Below, one piece after another: positions 22,627-24,816 of a stretch of DNA of 42,270 bases; within the stretch, counting starts at the first letter, position 1; each line of letters opens with the position of its first letter. The notes under the pieces are model-generated. The model was given only the letters and a program-made list of their open reading frames with translations. It was not told the DNA's origin and ran no database searches. The stretch is from Ignavibacteria bacterium GWF2_33_9 (GTDB lineage Bacteria; Bacteroidota; Ignavibacteria; Kapaibacteriales; UBA2268), in assembly GCA_001804565.1 (NCBI GenBank), contig MHAC01000002.1:1-42270 (forward strand). The letters run 5' to 3'. The translations under genes and the position numbers were made by a program.

Positions 22627-22661
22627 GAACATTTTACCGCTTGTTATTTGATAAAATGTTC
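22627..22661. promoter_or_regulatory. 10-bp inverted repeat around the rpsA promoter (candidate operator)
   Basis: gaacatttta (22627-22636) and taaaatgttc (22652-22661) are perfect reverse complements separated by 15 nt. The right half ends 1 nt before the -7 element and the -33 TTG lies in the spacer. A protein dimer bound here would cover the promoter. No T-run follows, so it is not a good terminator. Confidence 0.5.
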
Positions 22662-22670
22662 GTAATTTTG
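22641..22670 (+). promoter_or_regulatory. rpsA: Candidate rpsA promoter (TTG-N19-TAATTTTG)
   Basis: TTG at 22641-22643 and TAATTTTG at 22663-22670 are separated by 19 nt, the spacing known for Bacteroidota promoters. Transcription from here gives a leader of roughly 75 nt before the rpsA ATG at 22753. Confidence 0.55.
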
Positions 22671-22702
22671 TAATCTTATTAATTCACAAATGTTTAATTA
22701 AA

Positions 22703-22732
22703 CAGTTCAGAATTATTGGCGAATCTGAACTG
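22703..22732 (+). promoter_or_regulatory. rpsA: rpsA leader hairpin just before the ribosome-binding site
   Basis: cagttcaga (22703-22711) and tctgaactg (22724-22732) form a perfect 9-bp stem with a 12-nt loop. It ends 4 nt before the Shine-Dalgarno AGGAG at 22737-22741. S1 represses its own translation through a structured leader in E. coli. A similar role here is an inference from position and shape only. Confidence 0.5.
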
Positions 22733-22752
22733 GAATAGGAGCCAACATAATT

Positions 22753-24816
22753 ATGGAAAATATACAAGACAAAATGCAGGATGCTGCATCTACTAGCCGC
22801 CCTCAAATATTAAACCAATTTAAATCCGTTGATGCATTGCTTGATTCAGGTTTTGAAAATCTGGAAATGGATGAAAGTACTTTCGGAAATCTTTGGGAAG
22901 ATAAATTTGAAGATGTGAAAGAAGAACAATTGGTGAAAGGTAAAATCATTGAATTCGTAAAAGATGAAGTGATTGTTGATATAGGATTTAAATCCTATGG
23001 TTTCATCCCACGTGGAGAACTCATCAATCCTGAATCATACCAATTGGGTGAAGAAATTGAAGTTTTTGTGGAAAGATTGGAAGATATTTCCGGTCGTGTT
23101 GTACTTTCCCGTCGTCGTGCTGATTTTATGAAAATCTGGGATAGAATTATTGAAATCCACGAAAAGCAAGAAACTATCAGCGTGAAAATTTTACGCCGCA
23201 TTAAAGGTGGTATGGTGGTTGATCTTCTCGGTATCGAAGCATTTTTGCCGGGTTCACAAATTGATGTTCGTCCGGTTAGAGACTTTGATGTTTGGGTTGG
23301 ACAGAACATAGATATTAAGATTGTTAAAATTAATCTCGCAAATTACAATGTAGTTGTAAGTCATAAAATACTTCTCGAAGAAGAACTCAGCGAGCAACGT
23401 CTAGAAATTATGTCCCGTCTCGAAAAAGGTCTGGTACTCGAAGGCGTTGTGAAAGCAATTGCTGATTTCGGTATCTTTGTTGATTTAGGCGGTGTGGACG
23501 GTTTGGTTCATATCACTGACTTATCATGGGGTAGAGTTACTCATCCTTCAGAAGTTGTTACTTTAGACCAACAGGTTAAAGTTGTTATTTTAGATTTCGA
23601 TCAGGACAAGAAGAGAATTTCTTTGGGTATGAAGCAATTGACTTCACATCCATGGGATGCAATCGGCGAAAAATATCTTGATGGTGTAAAAGTTACGGGT
23701 AAAGTTGTTAGCTTAACAGATTACGGTGCATTTATTGAAATTGAAAAAGGTATCGAAGGACTTATCCATATTAGTGAAATGTCATGGACACAACATATTA
23801 AACATCCTTCACAAGTTGTTTCACTCGGACAAGACGTTGAAGCAATCGTATTGAATATTGATAAAGAAAATAAAAAACTTGCTCTAGGTATGAAGCAATT
23901 GCTTCCGGATCCATGGGAAGATTTATTGAAGAAATATCCAATCGATTCTGAACATGAAGGAACTGTAAGAAATATAACTAATTTTGGTACTTTCGTTGAA
24001 TTGGAACCAGGTGTTGATGGTTTGGTACATATCAGTGATTTGTCTTGGACAAAGAAAATTCGTCATCCGGGCGAATACGTGAAAAAAGGCGATATGTTGA
24101 AAGTGAAAGTAATCGGTATTGACTTACAACAAAGAAGAATTTCTCTTGGTCACAAACAAGTTGGAGATAATCCTTGGGATTACCTTGAAGAAAAATATCG
24201 TGTTGGCCAAGAAACTACTGGAAAAATTGTTAGAATCATCGAAAAAGGTATCATAGTTGAGCTCTCTGACGGTGTTGATGGTTTCGTTCCTGTTTCTCAA
24301 TTATCATTTGCTCCGGTTCGCAATATTAGTGAATATTTCAGAATGGATGATACTTTACCACTTAAAGTTGTTGAATTCGACAAAGATGCAAAGAAAATTG
24401 TTCTTTCTGCAGTTGAAGCATTAAGAGGTAAAGACGCTGATATTATCGAAAAATATAATACTCAACACCCTGTTCCTAATGCTCATCAGTATTCAACTTA
24501 TGAAGTTAAGCCTGAATCATTACAGGAAGAAATTGCTAGTATGGAAAGCGAAACAGAAGCTTACTTAAAACAGGAAGTTAATTTCTATCCAAGTATTGAC
24601 GAAGCTTTTGATGAAAACAAAGAACCTGTGGTAGAAATTAAAAATACTGAAGCTGTTAGACTTTCTGATATTCCTATTAAGGCAAAGAATGAAGTAGCAG
24701 AGGAAGCAGTAACTGAAGAAGTTGTAGAAGAAACAGTAACTGAAGAAGCTATAGATGAAACAGTAACTGAAGAAGCTATTGAAGAAACAGTAACTGAAGA
24801 AAAAACAGCTGAATAA
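22753..24816 (+). CDS. rpsA: 30S ribosomal protein S1
   Basis: S1 binds mRNA on the 30S subunit and helps start translation of structured or SD-poor messages. 687 residues: an N-terminal part of about 55 residues, then six S1 RNA-binding domains to about residue 560. The third to fifth show the best motifs: GIFVDLGGVDGLVHITDLSWGR, GAFIEIEKGIEGLIHISEMSW and GTFVELEPGVDGLVHISDLSW, each followed by a KRISLGMKQ-type strand. The tail from about 590 is acidic and ends in 9-residue repeats rich in VTEE. The protein is longer than the E. coli form (557) because of both ends. The start has AGGAG 11 nt upstream, behind a hairpin. It is transcribed alone, with a terminator downstream. Confidence 0.97.
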   Translation: MENIQDKMQDAASTSRPQILNQFKSVDALLDSGFENLEMDESTFGNLWEDKFEDVKEEQLVKGKIIEFVKDEVIVDIGFKSYGFIPRGELINPESYQLGEEIEVFVERLEDISGRVVLSRRRADFMKIWDRIIEIHEKQETISVKILRRIKGGMVVDLLGIEAFLPGSQIDVRPVRDFDVWVGQNIDIKIVKINLANYNVVVSHKILLEEELSEQRLEIMSRLEKGLVLEGVVKAIADFGIFVDLGGVDGLVHITDLSWGRVTHPSEVVTLDQQVKVVILDFDQDKKRISLGMKQLTSHPWDAIGEKYLDGVKVTGKVVSLTDYGAFIEIEKGIEGLIHISEMSWTQHIKHPSQVVSLGQDVEAIVLNIDKENKKLALGMKQLLPDPWEDLLKKYPIDSEHEGTVRNITNFGTFVELEPGVDGLVHISDLSWTKKIRHPGEYVKKGDMLKVKVIGIDLQQRRISLGHKQVGDNPWDYLEEKYRVGQETTGKIVRIIEKGIIVELSDGVDGFVPVSQLSFAPVRNISEYFRMDDTLPLKVVEFDKDAKKIVLSAVEALRGKDADIIEKYNTQHPVPNAHQYSTYEVKPESLQEEIASMESETEAYLKQEVNFYPSIDEAFDENKEPVVEIKNTEAVRLSDIPIKAKNEVAEEAVTEEVVEETVTEEAIDETVTEEAIEETVTEEKTAE
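24706..24801 (+). repeat. 27-bp tandem repeat in the 3' end of rpsA (about 3.5 copies)
   Basis: Units start at 24706, 24733, 24760 and 24787 (the last one partial). The core cagtaactgaagaa is identical in all four copies. The period is a multiple of three and encodes about 9 residues around VTEE in the acidic tail of S1. Copy number could vary between strains. Confidence 0.85.

Follow-up and report, generated by a model that had tools for sequence, protein, structure and literature searches.

The leader of rpsA, the gene for ribosomal protein bS1, was analysed in a window of 42,270 nt (the whole stretch of DNA studied) from Ignavibacteria bacterium GWF2_33_9. Comparison shows that an AU-rich linear motif, in its fullest form AACTAATGTTTAACTAAAC, precedes rpsA and is flanked in several families by predicted pseudoknot helices, and that a hairpin in the window occupies the place of one of these helices, P2, downstream of the same motif. 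The window hairpin is real, and these observations suggest that it is part of a conserved structured rpsA leader of Kapabacteria and their relatives in the class, of which it would be the surviving P2 half, and that through this leader S1 would limit its own synthesis. We give this reading a probability of about 0.5, a value slightly lowered because the model built from alignment A5 (below) misses relatives and because one leader of the genus, L003, is weak.

Features of the locus and of the window hairpin

The perfect 9-bp stem with a 12-nt loop, which the sequence-only reading had placed 4 nt before the AGGAG of rpsA, was borne out at 22703-22741: GAAT separates stem from AGGAG, and the hairpin covers 50 to 21 nt upstream of the start. 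The upstream gene encodes an NlpC/P60 protein (PF00877, Pfam) and ends in a terminator-like stem and T run, so that rpsA is probably transcribed here as a unit of its own. The succession of CTTG, 19 nt and TAATTTTG, which we take to match the Bacteroidota -33/-7 promoter pattern, includes TAATTTTGTAAT, every column of which is invariant among the five genus members. The predicted transcript start at about 22676, placed by script 5 nt past the promoter box, gives a 77-nt leader. A perfect 10-bp inverted repeat (GAACATTTTA/TAAAATGTTC, 22627-22636/22652-22661) lies across the likely -33 box and the spacer; by eye it has no counterpart in the genus relatives, and it is a possible operator or an AT-rich chance repeat. 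The C-terminal tail of RpsA (24700-24816) is an acidic, near-repetitive stretch (EETVTEEAIDETVTEEAIEETVTEE).

Features of the rpsA locus, in coordinates of the window
Feature	Position	Strand	Remarks
Likely intrinsic terminator of upstream NlpC/P60 gene	22506-22533	+	8-bp stem into 8 T
Likely promoter	22640-22670	+	CTTG 22640-22643, 19 nt, TAATTTTG 22663-22670
Linear motif TTCACAAATGTTTAATTAAAC	22683-22703	+	core AATGTTTAATTAA at 22689-22701
Hairpin at P2 position	stem 22703-22711/22724-22732, loop 22712-22723	+	arms CAGTTCAGA and TCTGAACTG
Shine-Dalgarno AGGAG	22737-22741	+	outside hairpin; GGAGCC in all five genus members
rpsA, ribosomal protein bS1	22753-24816	+	ORF of 687 aa; Pfam S1 domain PF00575, 6 stretches, E 4.7e-90

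By itself the 9-bp stem is no more than mildly unusual. The 42-kb window contains 9 perfect stems of this length with loops of 3-12 nt, where 20 dinucleotide shuffles average 3.85; if three or more G/C are required in each arm, the window has 3 and the shuffles average 0.9. The segment from -51 to -8 of rpsA (-12.2 kcal/mol) ranks top by z (-2.85) among the start-proximal segments of the 33 window genes, the runner-up among the best 8 having a z of -2.34 and -5.7 kcal/mol. In the predicted fold of the window leader, GGAG is unpaired with a probability of 0.66-0.80, and TTCACAAATGTTTAATTAAAC, upstream of the hairpin, has weak pairing or none; AU-rich single-stranded stretches are likewise a feature of the gammaproteobacterial S1 leader. 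Three other readings of the window leader and its neighbours were rejected. The stem is followed by GAATAGGAGCCA with no T run, which speaks against a terminator or attenuator; a fold closing the rpsA start codon was set aside because its pairing draws on bases 5' of the predicted transcript start; and a pairing of the hairpin loop with the flank of the Shine-Dalgarno (SD) sequence (TTGGC/GCCAA in L001 and L002) was equalled by 57 of 120 permutations.

The layout is constant in all five genomes of the genus, with promoter box, AWTGTTTAAYTAA, hairpin, GGAGCC and start codon in this order. Each of them has a stem between AWTGTTTAAYTAA and GGAGCC, with nearly every letter replaced: CAGTTCAGA/TCTGAACTG, CAAAGTATAAA/TTTATACTTTG, GGTGT/ACACC, TTGTGTTTT/AAAGCACAA and GTGTTTTATT/AATAAAACAC, the last two coming from near relatives of each other. 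When the segment past the motif was folded against shuffles, p was 0.018, 0.01, 0.136, 0.016 and 0.002 in that order, so that four of the five are individually below 0.02 and the third, L003, is not significant; the combined value (Fisher) is 7.7e-6, or 4.7e-5 without L004, the near relative of L005. L003 has 5 outer pairs, and its hairpin does not appear in the minimum-energy fold computed for the leader together with the first codons. A protein-DNA operator would hardly be expected to replace almost every letter and yet keep its palindrome, as an RNA stem may. The compensatory changes that had been proposed as a check on the hairpin were therefore found, as a genus stem nearly rewritten yet still pairing (clear in four of five) and as changes on both sides in the related families described below.

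Complementarity between the segment 5' of the motif and the hairpin loop (P1 in the families below) was unsupported in the window genus, where 487 of 2000 permutations did as well and a separate comparison gave a z of -0.31; a pseudoknot is thus not supported in the genus. AU-rich P1 pairings do exist in L004 (9 bp) and L005 (8 bp), and in L001 the 5' segment can form 7 bp with the SD (TCTTATT/AATAGGA). The sequence-only reading, which saw a single compact hairpin, is right for the window genus; it understates the wider element, which in related families is a pseudoknot.

A 4-base SD core lies within -20 to -4 in 94 of the 99 rpsA leaders of the order, a count biased upward because the starts were partly picked by their SD. 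Within the window such a core precedes 8 of 33 genes, compared to 8.4% of random positions, and the earlier description of the group as weak in SD use is therefore roughly right here. The anti-SD is sequestered in Bacteroidia, according to the part of the source available to us (PMC9976891). The window rpsA has AGGAG and so departs from the gammaproteobacterial S1 leader, which is characterised by the absence of a canonical SD.

A linear motif and a pseudoknot in related families

Leaders were collected through rpsA: 99 belong to the order, and a further 81 come from elsewhere in the class and phylum, 50 of these from the class. In the order, 110 of 123 genomes had a strong rpsA match and 99 leaders were read. 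L090 and L240 (start codon not found) and G061 (contig end too near) were dropped; a script assigned the start codons, some of which (L138 and L194 among them) are open to doubt. The motif cut-off was passed by 94 leaders, with 49 in the group tests and 26 in the list of 5' hairpins.

A position-specific matrix of the core motif scored 78 of the 99 order leaders above the 95% level of shuffled leaders and 63 above the 99% level, counts that are biased by training on the same leaders. The window copy is weak: its score of 9.6 lies between the two levels, the best other window gene reaching 9.4. The long form AACTAATGTTWAACTAA recurs with at most one mismatch upstream of rpsA elsewhere in the class, and the window motif differs from it by three mismatches (counted by eye). 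In a search independent of rpsA, both exact copies of the long motif lay before rpsA, as did 8 of the 30 copies that were read, the other 22 being elsewhere. A role as a genome-wide element was rejected, as the 13-mer (at most one mismatch) occurred 27 times in its own genome against 59 times for the reversed control. One copy with one mismatch, in L124 (G000:C67:17082), lies 90 nt upstream of an ORF and is probably due to chance; the start of this ORF (MRKDSLRNIAIIAHVDHGKT) resembles what we take to be a BipA/TypA GTPase.

An H-type pseudoknot can be read in order families f2, f3, part of f9 and the single f6 leader, and in class families f18, f20 and f23. Its layout is P1a, the linear motif, and a P2 hairpin carrying P1b in its loop, followed by the SD. 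P1 takes such different forms as GGCCC/GGGCC, GACCC/GGGTC, GGCTCG/CGAGCC, CCGCAC/GTGCGG, GCCATC/GATGGC, ACCATC/GATGGT, GTCATC/GATGAC, AAGCCGT/ACGGCTT, ACAAGCTA/TAGCTTGT and ACAAATCAA/TTGATTTGT. In alignment A5, whose 19 rows are 15 of the 17 f18/f20/f23 leaders (two f23 leaders excluded) plus 4 new ones from the motif search, and whose families were picked after the pseudoknot had been noticed, 93.9% of P1 cells are paired and 5 of 6 pairs show changes on both sides. None of 500 shuffles was as high for cells paired, for either measure of both-side change or for the covariation score, and 96 of 500 were as high for further pair types; partners slid out of register pair at most 51.5%. The same count on A2, a structure-blind alignment of f2 and f3 (26 rows), was rejected, with 71.5% paired against 70.3% after sliding by one column, the latter with the higher covariation score. 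Because MAFFT shifts the register in A2, we used in its place a register-free test of own against permuted partners, in which none of 2000 permutations reached the observed value in A5 (n=19) or in order families f2/f3/f6/f9 (n=32), some best pairings differing from the named P1 (for example L102, L144, L152, L161). By duplex energy the outcome was mixed: own P1 partners did better than the mean of crossed partners in 7 of 7 f3, 6 of 7 f18/f20 and 6 of 6 f7 leaders, but in 10 of 17 f2, 1 of 5 f9 and 0 of 2 other f1 leaders.

Support for P2 comes from a stem search against shuffles and not from an alignment count. With 60 shuffles, mean z was -3.35 in f18 (n=10), -5.03 in f20 (n=5), -6.04 in f23 (n=2), -3.15 in f3 (n=7), -1.73 in f2 (n=20) and -1.03 in f9 (n=9); for 7 of 10 f18 and 4 of 5 f20 leaders, none of the 60 shuffles had as good a pseudoknot score. 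The same search gave a mean z of -0.25 in f1, the family of the window (n=43), and found no pseudoknot in f4, f5, f11, f13, f22 and f24 (mean z -0.35 to 0.6, 60 shuffles). Through P1 in the class relatives and the rewritten stem in the window genus, these leaders have the conserved secondary structure with compensatory changes by which r-leaders are recognised. In f30, leaders L212-L215 and L217-L220 carry ATCTCTC...GAGAGG before the start, overlapping a possible P1 (by eye); L216 (f25) lacks it, and the stem search in f30 gave nothing beyond shuffles (mean z -0.1, n=8). Elsewhere in the phylum, L231 (f39, z -0.76) and L232 (f40) permit P1 as single cases, with the pairings CCCTGAA/TTCAGGG around TTGTTTAACAA and CCGACA/TGTCGG with a GATC stem.

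At all seven f18/f20 loci examined, a same-strand upstream ORF stops 70-101 nt before rpsA, and in six of these cases the final codons or the stop of that ORF overlap with P1a. The upstream ORF encodes cytidylate kinase (Pfam) at the two f18/f20 loci scanned, and the upstream gene is LytB at the scanned f23 locus. A leader that starts within the preceding gene favours a post-transcriptional role over a purely promoter one, although in the class part of the conservation of P1a may come from cmk coding.

A search of 84 sources with a model built from the 19 A5 leaders gave 19 matches (E <= 5), of which the first 8 are f1 rpsA leaders: L004 and L005 (E about 1e-4), L088, L030, L002 (0.016), L007, L020 and the window (0.27). 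L004 and L005 are aligned with non-standard pairs in P1, and the L004 match is due to the motif and not to P1. At E <= 5 the model matched none of the 26 f2/f3/f6/f9 sources and neither f23 leader, so the kinship of these families is one of shared layout and not of sequence. In g21 what the model matches at the P1 position is a local hairpin, GCCAT/ATGGC (alignment of L088; L030 also listed), and L079 (g21), which the model did not match, has GCTAT/ATAGC there by eye. Among the 26 other f1 leaders, 10, from 5 of 14 genera, have a significant hairpin (p <= 0.05) directly 5' of the motif; the remaining 16, including g9 and g15, have none at this level. We infer that the AU-rich f1 leader is a pseudoknot come apart with one helix retained, and that the window hairpin descends from P2.

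Proposed function and alternative readings

Control by S1 is, by analogy, the likeliest function that we infer for the leader. bS1 prefers U-rich or AU-rich single strands and pseudoknots, and in gammaproteobacteria it is a strict autogenous repressor, competing with the S1 of the 30S subunit for a site that lacks a canonical SD (PMC10931766, in the part available to us). In the rpsA leader, free S1 would bind its own mRNA at the AU-rich motif, which the helix or pseudoknot would hold open and in position; S1 so bound would block the 30S subunit from the adjoining SD, which the hairpin itself does not hide. When free S1 is scarce, ribosome-bound S1 would use the motif to load rpsA mRNA. The simplest reading is that the gammaproteobacterial S1 logic operates here with a different RNA. 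Against S1 feedback stands the canonical SD, as such an SD abolishes S1 autoregulation in E. coli (PMC10931766, available text); if control is compatible with an SD here, poor availability of the anti-SD in the phylum may be the reason. A more specific proposal, to which we lean a little less than to the reading above, is a new family of S1 autoregulatory leaders in Kapabacteria and their class relatives, in which an H-type pseudoknot would clamp a near-duplicated ACTAA motif, would be reduced in f1 to one hairpin on either side, and would work with a canonical SD.

The strongest competitor, which we consider possible at perhaps half the weight of S1 self-limitation, is a constitutive translation enhancer, with the AU-rich motif as an S1-dependent docking site and the hairpin as a spacer that leaves motif and SD separate and accessible, so that rpsA would be highly expressed with no feedback. 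The anatomy is equally expected from it, the window GGAG is mostly unpaired (0.66-0.80), and S1 targets 5' of an SD can be enhancers; however, a pseudoknot with changes on both sides in related families exceeds what an open docking site needs, and the S1 of gammaproteobacteria is an autogenous repressor (both statements on S1 from the available part of PMC10931766). That the genus retains a stem and swaps its letters, as if its presence alone counted, would also suit a hairpin that protects the mRNA against decay independently of S1. This we regard as unlikely, since the hairpin is located at the SD, about 27 nt into the predicted transcript, and adjoins a class-wide motif, with a pseudoknot at the equivalent place in relatives.

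A motif as long as this one could instead be read by a different factor, whether another ribosomal protein, a regulator or a small RNA, an explanation that seems slightly less probable still: the upstream gene varies (NlpC/P60, cytidylate kinase, LytB) and rpsA is constant, partly by design, as leaders were collected via rpsA. Finally, a functionless chance hairpin would fit the modest excess of stems that have three or more G/C in each arm (3 found where 0.9 are expected) and the non-significant L003, but it is very improbable given stems at the same place with different letters throughout the genus (combined p 7.7e-6).

The rpsA leader studied here resembles the initiation region of E. coli and gammaproteobacterial rpsA in its structure, its AU-rich single strands and its presumed ligand, S1. 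It differs in keeping GGAG, as the gammaproteobacterial leader lacks a canonical SD and loses regulation if one is added, and in the pseudoknot of its relatives, of which the available part of that report makes no mention (PMC10931766). Like the L13, S4, S6:S18, S15 and S16 leaders of Bacteroidia, Flavobacteria and Chlorobi described by Eckert and Weinberg in 2020, it is lineage-restricted and supported by covariation (PMC7247131, available text); Table 1 of that report has no S1 or rpsA leader, and 'rpsA', 'bS1' and 'protein S1' are absent from the main text as available to us (PMC7247131). Another ribosomal protein gene whose ribosome binding site forms a pseudoknot is E. coli rpsO (S15), where S1 helps the 30S subunit to accommodate the structure, but gene and ligand are different and the rpsO pseudoknot includes part of the coding sequence (PMC3858243, available part). 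Flavobacterium johnsoniae rpsU offers another strong SD on a ribosomal protein gene, in a group where most genes do without SDs; its control by bS21-free ribosomes needs an extended SD, whereas rpsA here has an ordinary AGGAG, and a leader structure is not described for rpsU in the portion of the report available (PMC9976891).

Rfam gave no gathering match in the window and none above cut-off on the leaders of 20 related loci (E <= 1), a weak match to the snoRNA ceN40 (21.4 bits, cut-off 35) just touching the L245 leader at its upstream end. In a literature search that covered few subscription papers, the rpsA reports, as far as their text was available, concerned E. coli and mycobacteria, and no S1 leader was found for the Kapabacteria lineage. 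The suggestion of a distinct element has held up, in that the leader covaries and no described S1 leader for the lineage came to light among these sources. As far as seen, the leader is ordinary in kind, being a ribosomal-protein leader, and new in its combination of gene and lineage and in its form.

S1 feedback has been described for gammaproteobacteria, where the missing SD is part of the mechanism (PMC10931766, available text). If S1 self-limitation through this leader is true, a phylum that mostly ignores SDs would have solved the same control problem in a second way, by a conserved and covarying S1 leader that keeps a canonical SD, with the pseudoknot, the 5' hairpin and the 3' hairpin available as natural forms for comparison.
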